The notes beneath the pieces are model-generated. The model was not told where the DNA came from. It worked only from the letters and a program-made list of their open reading frames with translations, and did no database searches. From the NCBI RefSeq assembly GCF_000482705.1, contig NZ_KI519474.1:124001-188000 (forward strand): a stretch of 64,000 bases of DNA, read 5' to 3'. Positions within the stretch are counted from its first letter, which is position 1, and each line of letters starts with the position of its first letter. Both the position numbers and the translations under genes were made by a program. Positions 1-12,368 of this stretch are shown in pieces. The DNA is from Glycomyces arizonensis DSM 44726 (GTDB lineage Bacteria > Actinomycetota > Actinomycetes > Mycobacteriales > Micromonosporaceae).

Positions 1-197
1 ACCTGTTCGATGAGGTCGCGAACGATTCCGAGCTGTCGAAGATCGAAGCAGTGAACGCGGTCGGTAGGGAGCTGGTGAAGAAGTTCCCCGGTCGCTGGGA
101 GGGCAAGGACCCCGCCAAGGCCGCGAAGCAGGCATTCACCCGAGCGAAGAACCTGGTTGGCGGCGAGTACACGGGTGGGCGCTGGACGGCGCCGTGA
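1..197 (+). CDS. C-terminal end of an unidentified element protein (partial)
   Basis: An open frame enters from the left edge and stops at TGA 195-197, giving about 64 residues beginning LFDEVANDSELSK and ending GRWTAP. The segment is charged and helical, with no motif that I recognise. It is probably the end of a replication or structural gene of the integrated element whose right part fills this window, but this is only inferred from position. A hairpin with a T-run follows 14 bases after the stop, as expected for the last gene of a transcript. Confidence 0.5.
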   Translation, partial: LFDEVANDSELSKIEAVNAVGRELVKKFPGRWEGKDPAKAAKQAFTRAKNLVGGEYTGGRWTAP

Positions 198-211
198 CAA
201 GTAGACAGAAC

Positions 212-248
212 ACACCCGCTCGGGGCACACGTTCCGGGCGGGTGTTTC
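212..248 (+). terminator. terminator-like hairpin after the partial first gene
   Basis: Inverted arms ACACCCGC (212-219) and GCGGGTGT (238-245) are followed by TT. The hairpin sits directly downstream of the stop at 197 and probably ends that transcript. Confidence 0.5.
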
Positions 249-254
249 CCCAGC

Positions 255-424
255 TTGGAACAGGTGGAACAACGGAACCCCCCCCTTATATTCATCCCCC
301 CCTGTTCCAATCTCCGGCCTTTCTGAGGCCGGAGAATATGCAGCCCCTCAAGGGCTGCCATGATATGAATATGGGCCGCCTGAAGCGGCCCCATGACAGA
401 GCCAGCCGCTTCGCGGCGGCTGGC
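255..424. other. tandem array of five stem-loops in non-coding DNA
   Basis: Five consecutive inverted repeats occupy almost all of this stretch: 255-264/301-310 (10 bp, enclosing a C-rich 36-nt loop), 312-334, 340-358, 371-394 and 401-424. Each of the last four has a 7-10 bp stem and a short loop, and they are separated by 5-12 bases. A nominal frame (194-433) crosses the region but its residues are dictated by the hairpins, so I do not call it a gene. The array may be a structured RNA, an mRNA stabiliser or a replication/packaging signal of the element. Confidence 0.6.
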
Positions 425-457
425 AATGAATAATATATATTAGATTAATAGGAAATA

Positions 458-492
458 GGGTCGGCCCTCCCAAGGGGTCGGCCCTCTTTTTG
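458..492 (+). terminator. terminator-like hairpin with T-run
   Basis: GGCC...GGCC arms with an inner CCC/GGG stem, interrupted by two mismatches, are followed by CTCTTTTTG near 484-491. It closes the hairpin array on the plus strand. Confidence 0.55.
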
Positions 493-508
493 CTTCTTGA
501 ATATGAGA

Positions 509-734
509 GGCCGCTTCCGTTATCACTCTCGCGGCCGACAATGAATGACAGAGGTGGAACGCCCCGAAGGGGCTGGAAGCGATGGAATGAACTTGGATAT
601 TCAAAAGCTCGTTGGCGCTCCGCAGCGCCGCCGAGCGTAGATTAGTTGTTAACTTTTCATCCTTCGTTCATCTTCCGATGTCTTCGCATCTCCAGATTCT
701 CTCTGTCGGCCGCCGGATCGTGAGGCGGCCTTTA
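509..734. other. further stem-loops in gene-free DNA
   Basis: There is no credible gene between 434 and 749. The stretch carries more inverted repeats: GGCCGC 509-514 with GCGGCC 531-536, GCCCC/GGGGC 561-573, a nested stem at 607-636, and GGCCGCC 708-714 with GGCGGCC 724-730 followed by TTTAT. The last one lies just beyond the stop of the minus-strand GntR gene and could terminate transcription from the left. Confidence 0.45.
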
Positions 735-749
735 TAGGGGTAGGAGCAG

Positions 750-977
750 CTACGGCGCGCGGAACACGCCACGCTGCGGAAGTACCAAGATCAGTCCTTC
801 GGCCTCCAGCTCTGCCAACGCCTTCCGCGTGGTCACGCGCGACACGCCGATGTCCTCGGCGAGCTGCCGTTCGCTCGGCATCTCGGCACCGGGCGCCCAC
901 TCGTCCGCCTGGACGCGTGCGCGGATGAGCGCTGCCGCCTGGAGGTAGAGCGGCGTAGCCGAGTAGCGATCGATCAT
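750..977 (-). CDS. GntR-family winged-helix mini-regulator (DNA-binding domain only)
   Basis: The 75-residue protein is essentially one GntR winged helix-turn-helix: a YLQAAALIRARV helix, the PSERQLAEDIGVSR recognition region (about 34-47), and a basic wing ending QRGVFRAP. There is no ligand-binding domain, whereas full GntR/HutC members have about 240 residues. Such short GntR repressors are common on actinobacterial mobile elements, where they silence transfer or excision genes. It is divergent from two tiny ORFs, and the 88-bp gap between them holds two copies of a CTGGTCTAGCTGG motif that are its probable operators. The ATG at 977 gives the complete domain. Confidence 0.85.
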   Translation of the reverse strand: MIDRYSATPLYLQAAALIRARVQADEWAPGAEMPSERQLAEDIGVSRVTTRKALAELEAEGLILVLPQRGVFRAP

Positions 978-1001
978 GCCGCCGAGCGTAGGCGGCTCTG
1001 A

Positions 1002-1053
1002 ACTGGTCTAGCTGGTTTCGGTTCTATGTCTTGTCCTACTGGTCTAGCTGGTC
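1002..1053. promoter_or_regulatory. two direct-repeat operator candidates for the GntR regulator
   Basis: ACTGGTCTAGCTGGT occurs at 1002-1016 and again at 1038-1052, exactly 36 bp apart, between the divergent GntR gene and the small ORFs. GGTCTA-type half-sites are typical of GntR operators. A related copy, CTGGACTAGCT, lies at 1772-1782. Binding by the regulator at 750-977 is inferred. Confidence 0.6.
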
Positions 1054-1065
1054 TACCCTGTGGTG

Positions 1066-1206
1066 ATGACCACCAAGGCCAAGAAGCGTGCCGTACCGGC
1101 ACCGCGTAGCCAGCACCTTCCACGCAGGGGAAACCCGCAAGTGTGCGAGCTGTGCGGCTCGCTATGGCCTTGCAAGGACGCACGGATCGTCTGGTGTGAG
1201 GGGTAG
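1066..1206 (+). CDS. small basic protein with Cys pairs (46 aa)
   Basis: ATG at 1066 opens a 46-codon frame to TAG at 1204-1206. The N-terminus is basic (MTTKAKKRAVPAPR) and the C-terminus contains CELC, then single cysteines in LWPCKD and VWCEG, which resembles a very small zinc-binding fold. It lies downstream of the operator repeats and two bases upstream of the next small frame, so the two probably form one transcript controlled by the GntR repressor. The function is unknown; comparable tiny Cys-rich proteins are common on actinobacterial mobile elements. Confidence 0.5.
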   Translation: MTTKAKKRAVPAPRSQHLPRRGNPQVCELCGSLWPCKDARIVWCEG

Positions 1207-1208
1207 CT

Positions 1209-1403
1209 GTGACGCTGTATCGCCGTACGTCGGCTGAGGATGCGCTCAGGGCGCTAGAGGTGCACACCAAGGACAAGGACGGGTACTGCCGCTGTTGTCG
1301 CCGCGGAGGTGTGCTCGCCAGCTTCACGACGTGCGAGCCGTACCGCTGGGCTCTCCGTGTTCTGAGGAATGAATTAGCCTCAGAAGCGCCTGAGCGCTTC
1401 TAG
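1209..1403 (+). CDS. small Cys-containing protein (64 aa)
   Basis: A GTG start at 1209, two bases after the previous stop and preceded by GAGGGG, opens 64 codons. The protein has a central GYCRCCRRGG cluster and a later Cys (FTTCEPY), suggesting metal binding, and is otherwise helical. No family is recognised. The tight spacing implies co-translation with the 46-residue protein. A terminator hairpin starts seven bases after the stop, which supports this being the end of a real short operon. Confidence 0.5.
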   Translation: MTLYRRTSAEDALRALEVHTKDKDGYCRCCRRGGVLASFTTCEPYRWALRVLRNELASEAPERF

Positions 1404-1409
1404 TCTGCC

Positions 1410-1442
1410 AAGCCCTTGTCTGGATGCCTTCAAGGGCTTTTC
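1410..1442 (+). terminator. rho-independent terminator of the two-gene small operon
   Basis: AAGCCCTT (1410-1417) pairs with AAGGGCTT (1432-1439) and is followed by TTCGTGT. It sits just after the stop at 1403. Confidence 0.65.
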
Positions 1443-2114
1443 GTGTCTCTACGGCCCGTACAGCGGGCCGGATGATGTTCTCTGTGTTCATCGTTCGGCC
1501 GTCTGCCGTCTGCTTGGGAGCACTTCGAGGTTCCCTCGAAGTGCCTACGTCCTGACGAAGTGGCTTAGGTACACCTTACTTACCGCACTCTCCAGAATGG
1601 AAGAGAGCGGTTACCAGTCTGGAATAGACAGTGCTTCAAAAGCCTCAAATACCCTAGTTTTATAACGCTCAGACACTCAATATGATAACAGCATGGTAAC
1701 AATACCCACTGTTTCATGATTTTAGTGACGCACGCCACTCTCTATTCCACTACAGACATTCGTGGTCTGAGCTGGACTAGCTCATTTTGAACGTTCAATT
1801 TACAACTTTGCCGTGTCTAGATTTACTGGTCACGGCTATTGCTGTCTGTCCACAAGTTTTTATCCCGAACTAACTAATGAAGGGGTATTTAACCGGGAGA
1901 ACTTCTCGGGAACTTCTTTCGTCGGTGGAGTCTGGCTTCATCCGACGCGCTTTGGGCGGCGGTCCGAGGCAAGTTGTATTACAAGATAACAGCGCCTTCA
2001 CGGCGCAACATACAGATACACAAATTCCCGCAGCGTAGCCGCTGCGGTAGGCGCGTATGCGCTTTTTATTTACCCGGCTAGAAAGTGCTATTACCCAGAT
2101 ATGGAGGTTTAACA
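1443..2114. other. AT-rich gene-free control region of the element
   Basis: No credible gene is present. The region from about 1560 to 1860 is markedly AT-rich for this chromosome. It contains a perfect 10-bp hairpin at 1520-1544, a palindrome GAGCTGGACTAGCTC at 1769-1783 that resembles the GntR operators, a perfect 8-bp hairpin at 2028-2047, and a short GCGC stem with a T-run at 2051-2067. It probably carries the promoter for the rightward gene run starting at 2115, and could also hold a replication origin. Confidence 0.45.
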
Positions 2115-2381
2115 ATGGTCACTCTGTCAATCCCGGATGTCTCCGACGACATCGAAAACACTCAGAAGTCAATCAAGTTTTACCGTGAGAGGCGCGGGTG
2201 GTCCCGCGCTGAGCTTGGGAGCCGTGTAGGCGTTACTGCTGTCATGATTTCGAAACTTGAAACCGGCGGCTCCCACGGTTCCGTTGCGCTGCTGTATCGC
2301 ATATCTAAAGTTCTTGGCATGGGTGTTGACGCGCTTATGCGCGGCATCCCCGAAGAGGACACCCCTTGGGTTTTGATGTGA
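2115..2381 (+). CDS. XRE-family helix-turn-helix regulator
   Basis: The 88-residue protein consists of one HTH_3 domain: IKFYRERRGWSRAELGSRVG, then VTAVMISKLETGG and a third helix through ALLYRISKVLGM. The ATG at 2115 is chosen over an upstream in-frame start at 2085 because GGAGG at 2103-2107 is at ideal spacing. It heads a rightward cluster of small genes and its stop overlaps the next start. In temperate elements such proteins control the lysogenic or induced state; here it may act on the AT-rich region upstream or together with the GntR-like protein. No cleavage or ligand domain is present. Confidence 0.85.
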   Translation: MVTLSIPDVSDDIENTQKSIKFYRERRGWSRAELGSRVGVTAVMISKLETGGSHGSVALLYRISKVLGMGVDALMRGIPEEDTPWVLM

Positions 2382-2563
2382 CAGCCACGCTCAATCTCAA
2401 CGCTTACGGTGCTAGCGAGCTGCTAGCCGAATTGCAGGCTCACCGAGACCACCTACACGAGGCCGCGCAAGTCGTCACGACTGATTCAGCTAAAGAACTG
2501 GAGAGCCGACAGGCTTTCTTGGAAAAGATAATCGCCGAGATCACTCGGCAGACAAGGAAATAA
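2378..2563 (+). CDS. small helical protein of unknown function (61 aa)
   Basis: GTG at 2378 overlaps the stop of the XRE gene (GTGA), implying translational coupling; an alternative TTG start at 2366 would add four residues. The sequence is helical with many Ala, Glu and Gln (ASELLAELQAHRDHLHEAAQ) and ends in a basic tail, so a coiled-coil or antiparallel hairpin is likely. I do not recognise a family. Its position directly behind the regulator suggests an accessory early protein. Confidence 0.55.
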   Translation: MTATLNLNAYGASELLAELQAHRDHLHEAAQVVTTDSAKELESRQAFLEKIIAEITRQTRK

Positions 2564-2568
2564 AACAC

Positions 2569-3372
2569 ATGGTTATGACTGCGCATTTCAACGTCCCCGA
2601 AGCTGTTCGGCTCGGAGCCAAGCTCCCTAAGGCTGTACTGGAAGCTTACGAGGCGTTTACTGAGGCTCAGGCGTACACGACTGAGCCCGACCTACCTGCG
2701 ATTAGTCTCGACAGCTCGGACGCTGAGATCCTGGCTTATATCGCCGCCGACAAGCGGCTAGCCATGTGGGAACGCGTCGGCCAAAAGAAGGACAAGGCGG
2801 TCAAGGCCAAGGCCGGCGCGGCTCTCACCAAGGCCATTAACGATCACTACCAAGACTGTATCGACGCGCTGTGCGGCGCGGCAAACAAGATGATTAAGGC
2901 CAAAAATTTCGATCCATCGGCTATCGCAGACTTCGATCAGGTCTGCGCGATGCTCGACAGTATGGTTAGCAACATCGTGATGGAACTCAAAATCCCGCTT
3001 ACGAGGATGCCCGTCATTACGTATGACCCGTATAAGGATGTTGCCCGCGTTGTTGACGGCGGACTGCGGCAGCTGTTCCCGATTGACATCCTCCGTGAGC
3101 CGTCGTTCTGGTTTGTAGGTGACAGCCCTTCTGAGAAGCTTCTCAAAGGCAATCGACCCGACTACATCCACTGCGTGGCTATGAAAGCTGAAATCCAGCT
3201 CCCCAACGTCGCTGAGCATGTCAAGGAATTCGCCTTTAATACGGTCAAGGCGGCTCACGCCGAGATTGACCGGTTCTCCGATATCTCAGACGGAGGAAAA
3301 GGCATCCTCGACGCTATCGATTGGCAGATGGAAAGGGGATACGCCTCTTGGGCAGACGGGCGAATCGTGTAA
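2569..3372 (+). CDS. hypothetical element protein (267 aa)
   Basis: A 267-residue soluble protein follows the previous stop after five bases. The N-terminal half is helical, with a Lys/Ala-rich stretch (KKDKAVKAKAGAALTKAIND) around residues 72-93. The C-terminal half contains a mixed region with LFPIDILREPSFWFVGDS near residue 165. No catalytic motif, signal peptide or membrane segment is seen. It is the largest gene of the early cluster; a role in replication or host takeover is possible but not shown. Codon use is less GC-biased than in the chromosome to the right. Confidence 0.7.
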   Translation: MVMTAHFNVPEAVRLGAKLPKAVLEAYEAFTEAQAYTTEPDLPAISLDSSDAEILAYIAADKRLAMWERVGQKKDKAVKAKAGAALTKAINDHYQDCIDALCGAANKMIKAKNFDPSAIADFDQVCAMLDSMVSNIVMELKIPLTRMPVITYDPYKDVARVVDGGLRQLFPIDILREPSFWFVGDSPSEKLLKGNRPDYIHCVAMKAEIQLPNVAEHVKEFAFNTVKAAHAEIDRFSDISDGGKGILDAIDWQMERGYASWADGRIV

Positions 3373-3623
3373 TGGACGACGATTTTTACGACGTACAGCA
3401 GACCAGCCGACCGATTAATTACATGGAGAAGGTAGAAGGTGTTCGAGTGAGTGGACCGAATAATATCGAGCTCGACGACGACGGCGACGAGCTCGTGAAG
3501 CGTTGGAACGCGCAGGCGGCGGAGATCAGAGCCGAGCGGGAGGAACACGAGCGCCAGCGTCGAGCGAAGCTCGACGCGATGGACCCCGCCGAACTCGCCG
3601 ATAAGCTGAGGCGAGGCTTTTAA
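3372..3623 (+). CDS. small acidic, coiled-coil-prone protein (83 aa)
   Basis: ATG at 3372 overlaps the preceding TAA (TAATG), so it is translationally coupled to the 267-residue gene. The N-terminus is acidic (MDDDFYD), followed by an acidic LDDDGDELVKRW segment and a long charged helix rich in Arg and Glu (EIRAEREEHERQRRAKLDAM). An internal ATG at 3423 is possible. No family is recognised; the layout resembles small scaffold-like or regulatory phage proteins. Confidence 0.6.
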   Translation: MDDDFYDVQQTSRPINYMEKVEGVRVSGPNNIELDDDGDELVKRWNAQAAEIRAEREEHERQRRAKLDAMDPAELADKLRRGF

Positions 3624-3628
3624 CCGGT

Positions 3629-3901
3629 ATGGCACTCAGATATGACAAGCCTGGGATGGTTGTCTACCTTCGAAGCGAGCTCGGCGTGATCGAAACCGCG
3701 ATCATAGAGAAGGTGAAGCTCCCCGCCCGGTCGGGCGGAACCGCTTATGTTCGCCTGCTCGGCGTTGACGGACTACACGATAAGCAGGATGTCCACCCGA
3801 CTTGGCACGCCGCGAACAACGCAACCCCTGAGTCCAGATTCAACCACCACCCGGTTATCCGACGCTGCGATGCTCGGTTTGTCGGTGATTGGAACCGTTA
3901 A
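3629..3901 (+). CDS. hypothetical small beta-rich protein (90 aa)
   Basis: This 90-residue frame starts five bases after the previous stop. The first 50 residues look like a small beta-barrel: MVVYLRSELGVIETAIIEKV and TAYVRLLGVDGL, similar in character to SH3-like folds, followed by a His/Trp-bearing tail. No enzyme motif is present. The next 54 bases contain a strong hairpin before the following gene. Confidence 0.6.
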   Translation: MALRYDKPGMVVYLRSELGVIETAIIEKVKLPARSGGTAYVRLLGVDGLHDKQDVHPTWHAANNATPESRFNHHPVIRRCDARFVGDWNR

Positions 3902-3911
3902 ACGACTTGTA

Positions 3912-3936
3912 GGCAGGGGCGTCACTCGCCCCTGCC
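3912..3936 (+). terminator. strong intergenic hairpin
   Basis: A perfect 10-bp stem (GGCAGGGGCG / CGCCCCTGCC, loop TCACT) is followed by GTTTGT, between the genes ending at 3901 and starting at 3956. It may be a partial terminator or an mRNA-stability element; the ribosome-binding site of the next gene follows immediately. Confidence 0.5.
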
Positions 3937-3955
3937 GTTTGTAGGAGAACCAAGT

Positions 3956-4390
3956 ATGACTGTAGATTCCGACCCATATTACAAGGTGGAACACACTATT
4001 TACTGCAAGACGCCTAACGGCGTCGCCGAATTGACACGGCCTATCCAATATTGGCACTTCAAAGCTACAGGCGTCGACCTGGTGATGAAGACCCGTGGCT
4101 ACCATGCGTTCGTGAGGCGTGCGACTTCCGCGCACGCCACTATCGAGGACAGGGCCACCCTGATCAAGCTTAGGACGGCTATCAAGCATCCCCACTATGA
4201 AACCGCCGAATATCCGGGTGTGCTGATACCGGCCGGGTGCCTAGGTAGCACGTGGGACTGTGCGATGTATGACCGGCGTGTATTCAATGGTGGGGAAGAC
4301 TGGGAAACCATCGAGCGCGCAGACGCGCTCCATACGGACGACATTGCATTCCACGCTCATAACCCGCAAGGGATTGCGAACGAATTATGA
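3956..4390 (+). CDS. hypothetical element protein (144 aa)
   Basis: A 144-residue frame is preceded by a good GTAGGAG ribosome-binding site. It contains aromatic and basic segments (RPIQYWHFKATGVDLVMKTR) and a Cys-containing centre (PAGCLGSTWDCAMYDRR). There is no signal peptide or transmembrane segment. I do not recognise a family. It is the last convincing gene before a 160-bp gap, so it probably ends the early transcript, possibly with a tiny frame behind it. Confidence 0.65.
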   Translation: MTVDSDPYYKVEHTIYCKTPNGVAELTRPIQYWHFKATGVDLVMKTRGYHAFVRRATSAHATIEDRATLIKLRTAIKHPHYETAEYPGVLIPAGCLGSTWDCAMYDRRVFNGGEDWETIERADALHTDDIAFHAHNPQGIANEL

Positions 4391-4493
4391 GCAAAAGAAA
4401 GACTTTTATCGTAAGTTCAATTCGTCTCAGAACAAACTCAAGAATGATCTTATAGTCCTTCGTGATTCTGTCGAGAAAAAGAATAAGAAATAG
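4374..4493 (+). CDS. possible 39-aa lysine-rich ORF
   Basis: A TTG at 4374 opens a short frame overlapping the end of the previous gene; it has the sequence YEQKKDFYRKFNSS and a KKNKK end. A competing 22-codon frame from ATG 4387 also exists. Basic, helical content and coupling make it possible, but length and start are weak evidence. Confidence 0.25.
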   Translation: MRTNYEQKKDFYRKFNSSQNKLKNDLIVLRDSVEKKNKK

Positions 4494-4498
4494 TAGTT

Positions 4499-4530
4499 CG
4501 CGAGCGAGGTTGACTTGCTCGCGTTCTCTT
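4499..4530 (+). terminator. terminator after the early gene cluster
   Basis: CGCGAGC (4499-4505) pairs with GCTCGCG (4517-4523), followed by TTCTCTTAT, a few bases after the stop at 4493. The remaining gap to 4655 contains a GC-rich inverted run and an A/T-rich leader, a plausible promoter for the packaging/tail genes. Confidence 0.55.
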
Positions 4531-4655
4531 ATGTCTGTTTTGGGTAGGGGAGGGACCCCCCAGGGGGTATCCAGGAGACGCGCCGGGCGCATTGCAGCTG
4601 CCAGCGGATGAGTTTGAACCAGGGAAAAAAATTAGTTAAAAGTTAGGACTAGACC

Positions 4656-5054
4656 ATGATTATGCCTATGAAGTCCCAGCGTAGACAGGCATACCGCCCG
4701 CCGAAGGCGGCGGAAGTAGAGATTACGCCTACCGGCGCCAAGCCACCCGATCCCGATCCGGAGTGGCGCCAAGAGGTGTTGGACTATTGGAACGCTTATA
4801 CGCGGTCCGCTGCCGCGCCTGCGTTCACTGACGCCGAATGGGCGGAAGTGTTCATGAGGTTTATCGGCCTGGACAAGATTCTCAAGGCTTCGAAGTTCTC
4901 CGCTAATGGTTGGCGGGAAACACTCGACGGTATCGCGGGAGTCGAAAAAGCCGTGATCGCCCGGCATAAAGCCGGTTACACGGGCAAGGTGAACGAGCAT
5001 GCCGAGCCGGAACGGCTCTCTATGGACGAATGGCGGGCATATCTTGAGGGATAA
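4656..5054 (+). CDS. phage terminase small subunit-like protein
   Basis: The 132-residue protein resembles small actinophage terminase subunits: a basic N-terminus (KSQRRQAYRPP), a Pro-rich linker, then the pattern PEWRQEVLDYWNAYTRS followed by FTDAEWAEVFMRFIGLDKIL (about 80-100). Small terminases of this kind carry W(W/N)AW..S....T..DW, recognise pac/cos sites and recruit the large subunit. No large terminase, portal or capsid gene follows. In phage satellites a stand-alone small terminase redirects helper-phage packaging, which fits this context (inference). The start could also be one of the downstream ATGs at 4662 or 4668. Confidence 0.6.
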   Translation: MIMPMKSQRRQAYRPPKAAEVEITPTGAKPPDPDPEWRQEVLDYWNAYTRSAAAPAFTDAEWAEVFMRFIGLDKILKASKFSANGWRETLDGIAGVEKAVIARHKAGYTGKVNEHAEPERLSMDEWRAYLEG

Positions 5055-5256
5055 AATCGGCAATCCAATTCCGAAGGAAACAGCTAAATTCCTGCTGGAT
5101 TGCAATGTCAACCCATCGGATGTTGAAGACATTGAACAGCTCGACGCTACGATCGTTATCTGTCAGTGGGCCGCGGACGATGACCCGCGTTGGACACTAC
5201 AAGAATTGGTCTACGCCGAAGTTTACGGCGATTCTACATTTCAGAATAAGGAATAA
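5044..5256 (+). CDS. hypothetical small acidic protein (70 aa)
   Basis: The frame overlaps the end of the terminase-like gene; the TTG at 5044 (giving MRDKIGNPIPKE) is the most sensible start because upstream residues merely shadow that gene. The protein is acidic, with NPSDVEDIEQLDATIVICQW and WTLQELVYAEVYGD. In position and size it resembles small head-tail or tail-assembly accessory proteins, but I cannot assign it to a family. A four-base gap separates it from the tail-like gene. Confidence 0.5.
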   Translation: MRDKIGNPIPKETAKFLLDCNVNPSDVEDIEQLDATIVICQWAADDDPRWTLQELVYAEVYGDSTFQNKE

Positions 5257-5260
5257 TTAA

Positions 5261-6082
5261 ATGCCTAGAAATTCAGTTATGCACCGCGGTGATCTCGTCT
5301 ATCGTATCGAGCAGCTGGAAAGACTGCTTATCGACCGCACTAGCGGTCGAAGCCTTGAGAACTCGTCTATTGGTGCGGGTGGTCTCGATATTCTCGATGA
5401 AGGCAACATTAACATCGAGGGTGGAGACCTTAATCTTAATAAGGGTGGCTCACTCACCATTAACGGCGGCGAACTGCGATCGGTATCGCCGAATGGCGAA
5501 ACCATCTTCTACACTGGCCCGCGTGATATCGGTGATGATTCGTATCGAATCTGGGAGCTCGGATATGATAACGGCGTCCGTGCTGTTTCCACGGCGGGGA
5601 CATTCGGCAGCGAGACAATTCGAATCCAGGATTATAACGGGAATGTCGTGTTCTCGACTGCCAGCGCGGCAGGCGGGATTGAGAACGTCGGCTTGGCAAA
5701 GCCACATATCCCTCTAGTTTTCTACCCTACTTTCGAAGCCGAGAACGGCGGCTCTGGGCCTGGTTCGTGCTTCCCCACGACAACTAATTCAGCGTTCACG
5801 CCTTTGCTTACTTGTACGGCGACTATCTGGGCCGGTCGTATCAGGATTAGCGTGCATACCGGCACGGCGGGTGGCGGGAATTGTGAGTGGCGCCTGCTCG
5901 TCGACGGCTCGCCTGCGACCGACACGATCAGCGGCACGGGCACGGAGTTCCTCGACGTACCCGGTTGGGGCAATGACATCCGGCCGGGTTTCTCGGTTGA
6001 CCTTGTCGTCGAAGCTCGTTGCGCCGATGGCGCCGAGCGGGCGTATTGCAACATCGATCACGCATGGGCCTTCTCTGGGTAA
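5261..6082 (+). CDS. phage minor tail / receptor-binding-like protein
   Basis: The 273-residue protein has the architecture of actinophage minor tail proteins: a short N-terminal coiled coil (DLVYRIEQLERLL), a SLENSSIGAGGLDI motif near residue 32, then repeated beta strands with Gly and Asn (GNINIEGGDLNLNKGGSLTI), consistent with a triple-stranded beta-helix. The C-terminal 130 residues look like a compact beta-sandwich with several Cys. It would sit on the tail tip and contact the host surface. It is the only structural-looking protein seen, so it may be cargo swapped onto a helper virion or a prophage relic. A perfect terminator follows at 6148. Confidence 0.65.
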   Translation: MPRNSVMHRGDLVYRIEQLERLLIDRTSGRSLENSSIGAGGLDILDEGNINIEGGDLNLNKGGSLTINGGELRSVSPNGETIFYTGPRDIGDDSYRIWELGYDNGVRAVSTAGTFGSETIRIQDYNGNVVFSTASAAGGIENVGLAKPHIPLVFYPTFEAENGGSGPGSCFPTTTNSAFTPLLTCTATIWAGRIRISVHTGTAGGGNCEWRLLVDGSPATDTISGTGTEFLDVPGWGNDIRPGFSVDLVVEARCADGAERAYCNIDHAWAFSG

Positions 6083-6147
6083 GGGTCTGGCCCTGCGAGG
6101 CCGTTAGAGGCCAAATCAAAGGGTTTTAGCTGGTCAGAGACAAGGAA

Positions 6148-6177
6148 GAACCCCCGTGGCAGCGACCACGGGGGTTC
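6148..6177 (+). terminator. strong terminator-like hairpin after the tail gene
   Basis: A perfect 12-bp stem, GAACCCCCGTGG (6148-6159) with CCACGGGGGTTC (6166-6177), has a 6-nt loop. It is followed by a second inverted repeat TATCATTC/GAATGATA at 6181-6210. Confidence 0.6.
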
Positions 6178-6210
6178 GGGTATCATTCCGAATGCTACGA
6201 CAGAATGATA

Positions 6211-6568
6211 GGTGCCAGACTACCACCAAACGTCTGGAGAACCGCCGGAGCCCTAGGCGGGATAGAAGTAGGGGACCGGGTTAACGGCCCGTGTATCGCC
6301 CGTCAAAGGGGCTTCTCTCGTAATGGACGCATGAGGTCATGTCACGTGTTCCGCACGCCGTGAGGCTTGCGGGTCCAAGGAAGGCCCAACGTGATACGCG
6401 CGCAGAGCGCTAGCGACCGGACAGCGCCCTACACAGCTTCACCCGCTACGGGTGACCGTAGGTGCCGGAGCCTAGAACCTCATGCACACAGCCGCCCTTG
6501 CAGCGCCTTAACCAGTCTGCCTAGTGTGTGCGACCAACCGACCGACGCGACAGCGACGGATAGTCACA
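6211..6568. other. gene-free stretch between tail gene and integrase
   Basis: About 360 bases have no supported gene. The frame 6367-6576 is Ser/Thr/Arg-rich with no ribosome-binding site and looks random. Small hairpins occur, for example TCACCCG/CGGGTGA near 6438-6454. I see no tRNA or known RNA motif. It may be a decayed gene or an untranslated RNA. Confidence 0.35.
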
Positions 6569-6599
6569 CCGCCTAGCCCTGAACCACCAGGCTAGGCGG
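6569..6599. terminator. hairpin overlapping the integrase stop codon
   Basis: CCGCCTAGCC (6569-6578) pairs perfectly with GGCTAGGCGG (6590-6599). The 3' arm includes the stop codon of the minus-strand integrase. It can end convergent transcription from both sides. Confidence 0.55.
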
Positions 6600-8172
6600 C
6601 TCCCTGCCCTCCCTCGGCTCCGCTCTGGATAGCCGCCCACTGCTCATCGGCGGTCATGCCCTGCCCATCGTCGTCGGGCTGGAACAGGTGCGCCGTGTAC
6701 ATGTTGGTTCTCGGTGTCCGCTTGATATACATCACGATACCCGCCTTGACCAGCATCTCTCGGCGTCCTTCCGGCCCCGACGAACGCCATCGCTCCCCGA
6801 AGGTCACCCCTAGCTGAGTCTCAACCCAACCGCCCGGTTCTGTCGGCTCAGATTCCAGAGACGCGATGCGGGCCGCCAACTGGTCCAACCGTGCGGTCTG
6901 GCGCTGAATCAACATGTCAGACGTGGCAGACTCCAGAGACTTTGACACGGCATCGAAAGCTGTACGCAGCTCGTCAAGCTCGCGCGAATGGTCCGATCGC
7001 TGTACATAGGTTCGCTCAATCACGGGGTCATCCTCATACTGGCCCAAGAACAACGACTCCAAGTAATCCCATGCGACATCCACAGCGATCATGCCTTTAT
7101 TCGGGCACTCGCCACGGTGCCCTTTCTTGCATAGCACGTACTGATAGATTCGGCCGTTTACCTTCCTGGTTGAGCCGTTCAGGTTCCGCCCGCAGTCGTA
7201 GCACTTTACGACCTCATGAAGTGGGTTAGCTGTCGCTTCACTGCTCGGCATACGCCGATACGGTGCGTCTAGCAAGCGTTGCACCTCTCGGAGCGTCGCT
7301 ACATCCGGCGAGCCGTCCGCAGTCGCCAAGACAGGATCGCAGAGCTTTATCGGCTCGCCCGTGACGGTATCCCGCGCCGTCCGCATCTTCCCGTCAACAT
7401 CACGCAACACCTGATACCCGAGCAGCGAATCAGTTGCGAACATAGCGGATATCGTCGTGTCATTCCAGCGGGTGCCCTTCGGTGCCTTCCCGTAGAATTT
7501 CCGAGTCCAATCCTTCGGCGACAACACGCCACGCTCGTTCAAGTCCTGAGCGATCGGGAGACGCTTCTCTCCCGAACGCAACCGAGTAACAATCTCGTAG
7601 ACGATAGGCGTTGTCTCTTCTGACTTTACCCATGTTCGATTGCCATTGGCGTCAACACCTGGTTTTGTGCCGAACGGCATCGAGCCGTTCAATGGTCGTT
7701 TCGATTCCCTCAAATAGTCCATCGTGTCGTTGACTCGAATAGCGAGGTTGGTTGACTCGATCTCGGCGAAGGCGACAACCACAGTCATAAGAAGCTCGGA
7801 AATAATCTTGTCGATCCCGTCCGCGTCGGGGTCGTATTGGATTGCTTCTGTAGCGGAAAAGACCTTTTTCTTATGCTTCTGTGCCCATGTGAGTACGTCT
7901 CGGAAGTCTTGCCCGTTCCGTACAAATCTGTCGACGCGCCAGAACACCAAGGCGTCGTACTGCGCGAGCTTGTCTGGTTCGGTCATCCAGGGTCCGAGCT
8001 TGGGGCGTTCGAAGGGGGAGTACTTCGACGCCGAGATGTCGAGGTCTTCCGGGTAGGCGATGATGTCGATTCGCTCGGCGTCTGCCTTGGTGTCGATGTG
8101 CCGCCGCTGGCGTGGGGGAGATGTCGTGTCGTCGTCAAGACGGCTAATCCGTATCGGTCCGATGCCTCGCAC
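6592..8172 (-). CDS. large serine integrase (serine recombinase)
   Basis: The 526-residue protein has the full large-serine-recombinase layout. The N-terminal resolvase domain has Ser10 in RISRLDDD and the arginine cluster VFWRVDRFVRN (about 76-86). It is followed by a recombinase domain (GSMPFGTKPGVDANG), a zinc ribbon with CYDCG and CKKGHRGEC around 325-360, a coiled-coil region, and a C-terminal tail. It integrates circular DNA by attP x attB exchange and needs a directionality factor for excision. The GTG start at 8172 follows GAGAGGAGAC. It lies at the edge of the element, 21 bases from the truncated GNAT gene and reading the same way, the usual position next to attP. Confidence 0.95.
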   Translation of the reverse strand: MRGIGPIRISRLDDDTTSPPRQRRHIDTKADAERIDIIAYPEDLDISASKYSPFERPKLGPWMTEPDKLAQYDALVFWRVDRFVRNGQDFRDVLTWAQKHKKKVFSATEAIQYDPDADGIDKIISELLMTVVVAFAEIESTNLAIRVNDTMDYLRESKRPLNGSMPFGTKPGVDANGNRTWVKSEETTPIVYEIVTRLRSGEKRLPIAQDLNERGVLSPKDWTRKFYGKAPKGTRWNDTTISAMFATDSLLGYQVLRDVDGKMRTARDTVTGEPIKLCDPVLATADGSPDVATLREVQRLLDAPYRRMPSSEATANPLHEVVKCYDCGRNLNGSTRKVNGRIYQYVLCKKGHRGECPNKGMIAVDVAWDYLESLFLGQYEDDPVIERTYVQRSDHSRELDELRTAFDAVSKSLESATSDMLIQRQTARLDQLAARIASLESEPTEPGGWVETQLGVTFGERWRSSGPEGRREMLVKAGIVMYIKRTPRTNMYTAHLFQPDDDGQGMTADEQWAAIQSGAEGGQGAA

Positions 8173-8179
8173 TTGCGTC

Positions 8180-8232
8180 TCCTCTCGGGTGTGCTACGCT
8201 TCAGCTAGAGATTGTACCTTCTCGAATACGCC
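8180..8232. other. probable attR junction of the integrated element
   Basis: The GNAT reading frame loses similarity to its two-domain paralogue at about 8205-8230 (residues GVFEKVQSLAEA), and base composition changes from chromosome-like to AT-richer at the same place. The serine integrase starts at 8172. Together these place the crossover in this interval. The partner half-site and attL must lie left of the window. Confidence 0.6.
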
Positions 8233-8910
8233 CAGCGGCATGTCGGTGTACATGCGGGCGTGCATGTACGCCATGCCGTCGAGCAGCTCGGCGGGCGGCT
8301 CGCCCTCGAACACGACGGTCTCGAAGCCGTCGGCCCGCTGCCACGCCTCGTTCCACAGCCGCTCGATCGCGGCGTCGTCGACCTTGTCGAGGTCGCAGAT
8401 CCGGACCACGTTGTCGAGCGTGTTCTTGTACCCGGTGGCCTCGGCGAAGCCGACCGCGCTGTCCCCGACGGCCGTGCTGCCGGGGATCGGGACGGGCGCC
8501 CACGTCGAGACGGTGGTGCGGCCGAGCTCGGCCGCGCGCCGCTCCAGGTGCGCCAGCAGCGCCGAGCCGATGCCCTGGCGGCGGTGGTCGGGGTGCACCT
8601 CGAGCTCGATCTCGGCCAGGTGCGTGTTGTCGCGCACCGGCAGCTCGATGGAGTACCAGCCGAGGGCCCGGCCGTCCCGGACGGCCGCCCAGCGCTCGGT
8701 GTCCGTGTCGGACCGGTGCTGGACGAGGCCCATCATGCGGTGGGTGGGCTGCCAGCCCATGCTGTCGCGCCAGTCGTGCCGCTCGACGGCCTCGCCGATG
8801 GCGAGCCAGGACTGCACCAGTTCGTGGTCGGCGGGGTCGATCGGGACGATGTCGAAAGTGGCGCTGTCGAATGCGGCGCTGTTGGATGAAGCGCTGTCGA
8901 AATCCTTCAT
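8194..8910 (-). pseudogene. GNAT acetyltransferase truncated by element insertion (N-terminal half)
   Basis: The 238-residue product carries one complete GNAT domain, with the acetyl-CoA loop VHPDHRRQGIGSALL near residues 105-119. Its end then aligns with the linker of the neighbouring two-domain GNAT (LLDGMAYMHARMYTDMP versus LVDGIGYLHSRILTDSP), after which the frame diverges into element sequence and stops at 8194. The second GNAT domain is therefore missing. The first domain may still fold and acetylate an amine substrate. The start ATG at 8910 has GGGAG upstream. Transcription from this gene would read straight into the integrase. Confidence 0.75.
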
Positions 8911-8956
8911 GCGGGGAGTCTCCCGTGCGTCGGTGCAGCGGGCAAGCGGATTTGCC

Positions 8957-9982
8957 TCAAGCCAGGGCCTTCTGGAACAGCGTGCCGAAGGCGCCCCGGC
9001 GGTAGCCGAGCGATTCGTTGATGGCGATCATGTGGCGGTTGTCCTCGGCGTTGCCGGTCCAGATGCGGCGCATCTTGGGGCGCCAGTCGCGGACGCGGCG
9101 CTGGTTGGCGATCTTGAGGAGGGTGCCGAGCCGGTGGCCGCGGAAGCGCGGGTCGACGATCGTGTCGCCCTGGTTCGCCTCGTGCTCGCGGCCCGCGTCG
9201 ATGTGGATCTCGGTGTAGCCGGCGACCGTGCCCGACTCGGTGTGGACCGCCGCGGCATGAAGGTGCAGGACGCCCTGTTCGCGGCGGAGGCGCTCCTCGT
9301 CGCGGACGCGGGCGGTGTCGAAGACGATCTTGCGGACGTCCCAGTCGCCGGTGGGGGAGTCGGTGAGGATGCGGCTGTGGAGGTAGCCGATGCCGTCGAC
9401 GAGCGCCTCGTCGATCGCGCCTTCGAAGAGGACGATCTCGAAGCCCTCGGCGTGCTCCAGCGATTCGGTCCACAGCCGGTCGAGTTCGGCGTCGTCGACG
9501 TCGTCGAGGTCCACGAAGCGCAGGCCCATGGTCATGGCCTTCGCGTAGCCGTGCCGTTCGAGGAAGGCGGAGCCGAAGTCGAGGAACTCCGGCCCTTCGG
9601 GGACGGGGCTGCGGACGGAGACGGTGAGGTTGGTGCGGCCGAGCTCGGCGGCGCGGGACTCGACGTGGCCGAGCAGGGCCGAGCCGACGCCCCGGCGGCG
9701 GAAGTCGGGGTGGACGCGGACGTCGAACTGGAGGTTGTGCGTGTTGTCCAGCACCGGCAGATGCACGGGGGAGAAACCGATCACGCGGCCGTCCTCGACG
9801 GCGGCCCATTCCTCGCGGGTCTTGTTGCGGTGGTGCTGGATGAAGTTGAGCATGAGCGAGGTCGGGGTGGGCGGCGGCAGGGGAATGCGGTCGTGCGCGA
9901 ACACGGAGAGGGCGGTGTCGATCTTGGACTGGATCAGATCGTGGTCGGTGTGGCCGAGCCGGACGATCGCGAAGTCACTCAT
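8957..9982 (-). CDS. two-domain GNAT-family N-acetyltransferase
   Basis: The 341-residue protein starts MSDFAIVRLGHTD at 9982; frames extending upstream are Arg-rich noise. It has two tandem GNAT folds. The first has VHPDFRRRGVGSALLGH near 103-119 as acetyl-CoA loop. The second has DPRFRGHRLGTLLKIAN near 272-288 and an NxxMIxINxxLGY signature near its end. Such tandem GNATs resemble mycothiol synthase in design, but sequence similarity to MshD is not evident, so substrate is unknown. It is paralogous to the truncated gene 46 bases downstream; the pair looks like a local duplication. Confidence 0.85.
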   Translation of the reverse strand: MSDFAIVRLGHTDHDLIQSKIDTALSVFAHDRIPLPPPTPTSLMLNFIQHHRNKTREEWAAVEDGRVIGFSPVHLPVLDNTHNLQFDVRVHPDFRRRGVGSALLGHVESRAAELGRTNLTVSVRSPVPEGPEFLDFGSAFLERHGYAKAMTMGLRFVDLDDVDDAELDRLWTESLEHAEGFEIVLFEGAIDEALVDGIGYLHSRILTDSPTGDWDVRKIVFDTARVRDEERLRREQGVLHLHAAAVHTESGTVAGYTEIHIDAGREHEANQGDTIVDPRFRGHRLGTLLKIANQRRVRDWRPKMRRIWTGNAEDNRHMIAINESLGYRRGAFGTLFQKALA

Positions 9983-12190: not shown

Positions 12191-12368
12191 CACGAAGTGG
12201 AACCAACGGCACGGTCACGAAGTGGAATCAACGGCACGGTCACGAAGTGGAACTAGAGGCACGGTCACGAAGTGGAACCAAAGACACGGTCACGAAGTGG
12301 AATCAACGGCATGGTCACGAGAGGTGGAACCAAGCGGTACGGCCACGCAGTACCGATCGAGTCATGGT
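12191..12368. repeat. 25-bp tandem repeat array, about seven copies
   Basis: Units of the form CACGAAGTGGAAC(C/T)AACGGCACGGT begin at 12191, 12216, 12241, 12266 and 12291. A 28-bp variant starts at 12316 and a decayed copy at 12344. The first copy extends to the palindrome TTCCACGAAGTGGAA. The period is not a multiple of three and no frame with coding character spans it, so it is a non-coding minisatellite or binding-site array. Confidence 0.85.

Follow-up and report, generated by a model that had tools for sequence, protein, structure and literature searches.

In Glycomyces arizonensis DSM 44726, a gene for a one-domain GNAT acetyltransferase stands between an intact two-domain paralogue and the gene for a large serine integrase. 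This arrangement raises the question of whether an integrated element has split a tandem-GNAT gene, what kind of element it would be, and whether its excision could serve the bacterium as a switch. The window analysed is a stretch of 64,000 nucleotides (positions 1-64,000), which corresponds to C5:124001-188000 in a genome of 5.05 Mb and 49 contigs, referred to here as G000. Positions with the prefix C5 are those of the whole contig.

The tandem-GNAT gene and its uninterrupted relatives

The features at the junctions are the following.

8957..9982, minus strand: intact paralogous tandem-GNAT neighbour, 341 aa, 51.5% to the joined gene
8194..8910, minus strand: 5' part of the interrupted tandem-GNAT gene, 238 aa, with 227 host and 11 element residues
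C5:121537-121944, same strand: 3' part of the interrupted GNAT gene, 63% to neighbour residues 206-341
8229..8239, plus strand: attR core copy CGCCCAGCGGC, crossover dinucleotide inferred to be AG, with the attP symmetry centre on AG
C5:121923-121933: attL core copy CGCCCAGCGGC
6592..8172, minus strand: large serine integrase, 526 aa, GTG start, convergent to the gene for a 273-aa protein
1..8239, no strand: right-hand part of the element, which runs core to core over C5:121923-132239, its left 2,078 bases lying outside the window

The domain search places a GNAT domain in the stub encoded at 8194-8910 (PF00583, residues 53-134, E 9.7e-13). According to the original prediction, this frame follows the first half of its neighbour and diverges near the integrase, where the base composition changes. 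We found that the stub aligns at 41% with residues 3-233 of the 341-aa neighbour, in an alignment that continues through the stub TAG, and that the C-terminal 11 residues of the stub (VFEKVQSLAEA) are element-derived. The GC content is 57.2% in the element and 70.5% and 68.7% in the flanks. Between the stub stop and the GTG of the co-directional integrase at 8172 there is a gap of 21 bases (8173-8193), the spacing that had been described.

A second GNAT half with a matching core had been expected to the left of the window, and it is there. With the neighbour protein as query, eight matches were obtained in G000, including the neighbour itself, the stub and the detached second half, which lies outside the window at a distance of 10.3 kb from the stub. 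The 11-bp core CGCCCAGCGGC is found at both junctions, C5:121923-121933 and C5:132229-132239 (window 8229-8239). Because the core copies begin at C5:121923 and C5:132229, the element measures 10,306 bp. Joined in silico, the flanks yield a single open frame for a 356-aa tandem GNAT with the seam ...MPLG/EWDLQ..., and precise excision is predicted to restore the full gene in frame, in agreement with the original prediction. The insertion would leave a one-domain GNAT stub pointing toward the integrase, and the second half would be severed from its own start and promoter.

The uninterrupted form of the gene is preserved in G013, a genome of the same genus, where both GNAT paralogues lie side by side and the element is absent from the syntenic site. 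The joined protein is 87.5% identical to the second copy of G013 over 337 aa, gapless across the join. At the DNA level, 175 of 188 bases around the seam are identical without a gap, and the flanking DNA on both sides aligns collinearly at 87-93%. Since G013 carries both copies, the GNAT duplication predates the insertion. In 19 of the 21 other genus genomes, the best match of the neighbour is free of stops and covers residues 2-338 or more; of these 19 loci, the seven examined against the joined protein match it at 61-88% over 336-352 residues. The remaining two, G003 and G017, have a best match of 41-43%, which may represent another paralogue. The dN/dS values against G013 (first half 0.74, second half 0.37, whole gene 0.56, neighbour 0.76) are based on few substitutions; they give no clear sign of decay, nor of constraint on the first half, and do not discriminate.

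No one-domain GNAT was seen at this site in element-free relatives, and the second half does lie at the left end. That a naturally one-domain GNAT simply stands beside an integrase without any insertion is practically negligible: the stub is an open frame, and nothing further speaks for this view, whereas the second half lies 10.3 kb off with the same core and the gene is intact and collinear in G013.

The intact neighbour has an orthologue at 78% in G013. Its solved relative, over residues 54-328, is ORF14 of the clavulanic acid cluster (PDB 2wpw, E 6.3e-29; also 2wpx). An imperfect 15-bp tandem repeat of 3.5 copies lies at 8850-8902, close to the start codon of the GNAT stub, at a place where the G013 orthologue is shorter than the G000 protein by about 15 residues. 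Another repeat, at 12191-12351, consists of 6.3 copies of the 25-bp unit CACGAAGTGGAACCAACGGCACGGT and is apparently intergenic.

The serine integrase and its attachment sites

The integrase combines a Resolvase catalytic domain, a Recombinase domain and a zinc ribbon in one long protein, the composition of a large serine integrase (PF00239 1e-15, PF07508 1.6e-4 and PF13408 1e-5, all above cut-off). It also matches phrog_95 (integrase) at 1.3e-70. Its GTG at 8172 is the sole start codon within the first 40 codons of the frame.

The attachment sites have the features of this enzyme class, namely imperfect inverted repeats at attP and a short core common to attL and attR. The predicted attP at the circle junction is symmetric at 16 of 25 positions and is the sole one of the 10,306 circle positions to reach 16; as background, 45 of 63,938 window positions do so. 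The predicted attB, with 12 of 25, lies below attP. An attP with the most symmetric arms in the element is what a serine integrase should have. The integrase would recombine attP with attB at the AG dinucleotide. Taken with the core at both junctions, which agrees with the proposed attB within the coding sequence of one of two paralogous tandem-GNAT genes, these features make insertion by the serine integrase at a coding-sequence attB almost certain. Only one occupied site was found for this GNAT attB, and no published report of it was obvious among the literature matches listed.

A coding-sequence attB of a serine integrase is established for Listeria phage A118 at comK (PMC3556126, excerpt). 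The system described here resembles the A118-type serine integrases, as characterized in that excerpt, in its large C-terminal part, an attB within a gene, an asymmetric 2-bp crossover, and attP and attB sites that are otherwise poorly related to each other (PMC3556126). It differs from A118 in its target, a tandem GNAT, and in its extent, as the element is 10 kb and A118 is a full phage. It is also distant from known phage integrases (about 30% for the best listed), a comparison that lies outside A118. The integrase matches 740 phage records, none of which reaches 60% identity; the 20 listed of these 740 are at 30-32%.

Relatives are equally distant elsewhere. At E 1e-60, with one genome per species and the best few candidates per genome scored, the integrase is found in one of 354 family genomes, its own, and distant integrases of 26-34% occur in eight of the 21 other genus genomes. 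The protein collection gave four relatives at 27-30% among 7,995 scored candidates. None of six pattern-matching stretches in genome_contigs was confirmed, and viral_contigs contained none.

Read-through of host transcription from the stub into the integrase, as had been suggested, is partly supported. Strand and spacing fit this idea, but a GAGAGGAG motif belonging to the integrase itself precedes the GTG, and the promoter comparison was uninformative: the match to the hexamer consensus is 8 of 12 in the integrated state and 7 of 12 in the circle, with the TACAAT of the element arm present in both.

Gene content and probable origin of the element

Read from left to right, the element has two small ORFs, after which come genes for a DUF2637/HTH protein, the AAA_25 ATPase, two regulators (GntR-type, then HTH_3) and a 267-aa protein. 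Further small ORFs lie between these and the genes for the terminase small subunit and the 273-aa protein, and the convergent integrase gene comes last. Most of the other small ORFs are without assignment in the Pfam and PHROGs scans. The genes of interest within the window are listed below.

3..197, plus strand: 3' end of the AAA_25 ATPase gene, whole gene C5:123181-124197, PF13481 5.2e-14
750..977, minus strand: GntR-type HTH protein, 75 aa, PF00392 1.1e-18
2115..2381, plus strand: HTH_3 regulator, PF01381 1.8e-10
2569..3372, plus strand: 267-aa protein without Pfam, PHROGs or PADLOC match
4656..5054, plus strand: terminase small subunit-like protein, 132 aa, PF25673 28.6 bits with a cut-off of 27
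5261..6082, plus strand: tail-tip-like protein, 273 aa, 26-28% to Streptomyces phage proteins

The 132-aa terminase-like protein is found in one of 354 family genomes and has no match among the phage records. A terS gene, which characterizes some PICIs and is not universal among them, is narrowly recognized here. The relatives of the 273-aa protein, in six of 50,697 phage records, belong to the Streptomyces phages Picard, Mojorita, Alderaan and SV1; the Picard homologue is flanked by a minor tail protein and an endolysin. The protein also matches phrog_9849 (function unknown) and two unnamed relatives at 38-42% in the protein collection. On a satellite-like element, a tail-tip-like protein of this kind might obstruct helper tails or change their target. 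The DUF2637/HTH protein matches phrog_733, which is labelled excisionase, a label that we did not accept as evidence for a recombination directionality factor (RDF). A PADLOC scan of eight element proteins gave a weak CasR match of the GntR protein and nothing else.

No capsid, portal or lysis gene was found among the element ORFs scanned, which do include the tail-tip-like gene. Capsid-forming PICIs are marked by a major capsid protein, a portal and both terminase subunits of their own, a set that the element lacks as far as the ORFs scanned and two families searched genome-wide show. These two, the PF05065 capsid and the PF03354 large terminase, gave no hit in G000 at E 0.001, in a search whose controls were positive in 4 of 14 and 3 of 14 genomes, respectively, and they do not suggest a resident helper.

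The integrase and the regulators of this 10.3-kb element are clear, whereas the role of the AAA_25 protein in replication is putative. We consider it probable that the element is phage-satellite-like (PICI-like), with its own serine integrase and a coding attB in the tandem-GNAT gene. The combination of genes makes a phage satellite a likelier identity than a prophage or a conjugative element. In the proposed life cycle, the AAA_25 protein would probably replicate the element upon arrival of a helper phage, the small terminase subunit would probably divert packaging into helper particles, and the 273-aa protein may modify helper tails or hamper them. With precise excision, the GNAT gene would be restored as a by-product of this cycle.

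Several points speak against a satellite. The terminase match is barely above the cut-off and has no phage relative, a tail-like gene is unusual in a classical PICI, and what the related elements described below have in common is mostly the AAA gene and, to a weak degree, the terminase; the integrases are unrelated or 25% identical, and the two tail-like proteins are dissimilar. A decayed prophage that has lost its structural genes and its mobility would account for the few recognizable phage genes, the many small unassigned ORFs and the leftover tail-like gene near the integrase. We regard it as rather unlikely, as the integrase is intact, elements of nearly equal length (10,261 bp in G242 and about 9.6 kb in G213) recur with AAA_25 and a terminase small subunit, and the close AAA family is absent from the 50,697 phage records searched by tblastn. 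DUF2637/HTH-type proteins occur on actinomycete plasmids and elements, and the presence of one here would fit an actinomycete integrative conjugative or mobilizable element. Such an origin is nevertheless highly improbable: the ORFs scanned match neither FtsK/Tra nor a relaxase, the other ORFs were judged too short for FtsK, the terminase and tail-like genes are present, and the AAA protein has no relative by tblastn in 72,556 plasmid records. Against these two alternatives, the satellite is the origin that we favour, with somewhat more reserve than the description as PICI-like itself.

The criteria for PICIs, among them an attachment site never occupied by a prophage, are those in the excerpt of PMC6092414. 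By that excerpt, the element is like the SaPI-type PICIs in having an integrase, regulators, a probable replication gene and a terminase small subunit and no capsid; it differs in its length (10.3 kb against about 15 kb), its serine integrase and its tail-like gene (PMC6092414). The candidate PICIs of Mycobacterium and phiRv1/phiRv2 include at least one example with a serine integrase in the part of PMC10654092 available. The candidates are also small integrated elements with an integrase and phage genes, and the likeness to them and to phiRv1/phiRv2 is drawn from descriptions, not from sequence comparison. They were defined by an integrase and a major capsid gene, whereas here a capsid was not detected and the host group is another (PMC10654092, in part). 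The Streptomyces satellites MulchRoom and MiniFlayer are likewise actinobacterial phage satellites but, according to the abridged PMC10690885, encode capsid and packaging genes and parasitize virulent phages, in which they differ from the element here. No satellite in Glycomyces or Micromonospora was apparent from titles and abstract beginnings among the literature matches listed.

Related elements and the possibility of a switch

The AAA protein connects the element to others. Of 8,000 candidates scored in the protein collection, 70 match it, with the protein itself in first place. The named relatives, at 54-63%, are from Mycolicibacterium, Mycobacterium, Rhodococcus, Nocardia and Pseudonocardia, and the unnamed ones are mostly at 50-65%. 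Relatives occur in five of 354 family genomes at 1e-10 and in four of 397 order genomes at 1e-40, G000 included in both. One locus out of 170 pattern matches was found in genome_contigs and none was confirmed out of 91 in viral_contigs. In M. vanbaalenii (L047), the AAA gene (62%) has a serine integrase and a terminase small subunit in its vicinity, the latter with a PHROGs match and no Pfam match, in a frame about 0.9 kb from the contig end.

Another relative is L052:7368-17668 (G242:C304), from another genus. This element of 10,261 bp is bounded by 40-bp repeats and splits a class-V aminotransferase gene. It encodes a tyrosine integrase, the AAA protein, a strong terminase small subunit, a capsid and a minor-tail-like protein. 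Its terminase small subunit matches the 132-aa protein at 27% over 78 aa, and direct comparison of the two tail-like proteins showed no similarity. The site is empty in G246, where one alignment of 806 bp (91.7%) crosses the join, and in G213 (L061) it holds another element, with about 9.6 kb between two core copies and genes for AAA_25, a capsid and a terminase small subunit.

Two further loci concern comEC. In L053:11345-15193 (G177:C133), an AAA gene and a serine integrase gene lie just after a comEC that is cut at the HHGSA motif; comEC orthologues continue past this cut point in all five examined, of 14 other genomes with a match, and the second half was not found within the 20 kb examined in G177. 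In L069:786-13355 (G260:C2), comEC is broken into two parts separated by about 10 kb, with a serine integrase and a larger AAA_25 protein between them; no exact core was identified there. Interruption of competence genes by mobile elements may recur in the genus of G260. No report of comEC interruption in Micromonospora was apparent from titles and abstract beginnings among the literature matches listed.

In the three serine-integrase cases read (G000, G177 and G260), the truncated host gene is followed directly, on the same strand, by the integrase. Its distance from the stub is 21 bases in G000 and 6 or 57 in G177, depending on the start codon, and in G260 it overlaps the stub end. The count was made after the fact and leaves out L047, and the chance of it is 1 in 8 if orientation is random; the three co-oriented cases prove nothing. 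We would give only slight credence to a broader scheme, a family of actinobacterial satellites of about 10 kb within conserved host genes, in which transcription of the target by the host would drive the integrase and excision would rebuild the gene. Under that scheme, the family would comprise an AAA_25 ATPase, a terminase small subunit, a tail-tip-like gene and interchangeable serine or tyrosine integrases, with tandem GNAT, class-V aminotransferase and comEC genes as its targets.

The original prediction went further and proposed a regulated gene-reconstruction system. In such active lysogeny, for which Listeria comK and the Bacillus sigK skin element are precedents, condition-dependent excision would restore the tandem GNAT, with reinsertion possible. 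Helper-embedded PICIs, in the account excerpted from PMC10111431, affect the expression of the gene that they interrupt and time it, and offer a further precedent. The element shares with them the location of a satellite within a gene; it differs in that theirs is a late gene of the helper prophage (PMC10111431) and here it is a host acetyltransferase gene. The restored frame, the two halves that are both open and well conserved against G013, the apparently complete integrase and its co-directional position 21 bases after the stub are all compatible with such a system. However, no RDF was identified, an intact paralogue (51%) lies next door, and recency alone accounts for the open halves. Because the integrase is found in one of 354 family genomes (one per species, E 1e-60), the gene and the element show no conserved pairing. 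The proposal of a regulated system is not supported by these findings, and we consider it very improbable.

The structural interpretation of the insertion is strongly supported by the predicted join and the empty site, whereas its use as a switch by the bacterium is possible in principle and unsupported. The element has more the look of a recently acquired satellite than of a domesticated switch. The integrase, with a predicted attB and attP that are cleanly delimited, is a possible new integration tool. The AAA_25 ATPase would make a scattered group of satellites recognizable, in which related elements interrupt other conserved genes. If the broader scheme is true, a satellite would sense its host through the gene that it interrupts, and if excision is regulated, the tandem-GNAT gene would be under a gene-reconstruction switch carried by a satellite.
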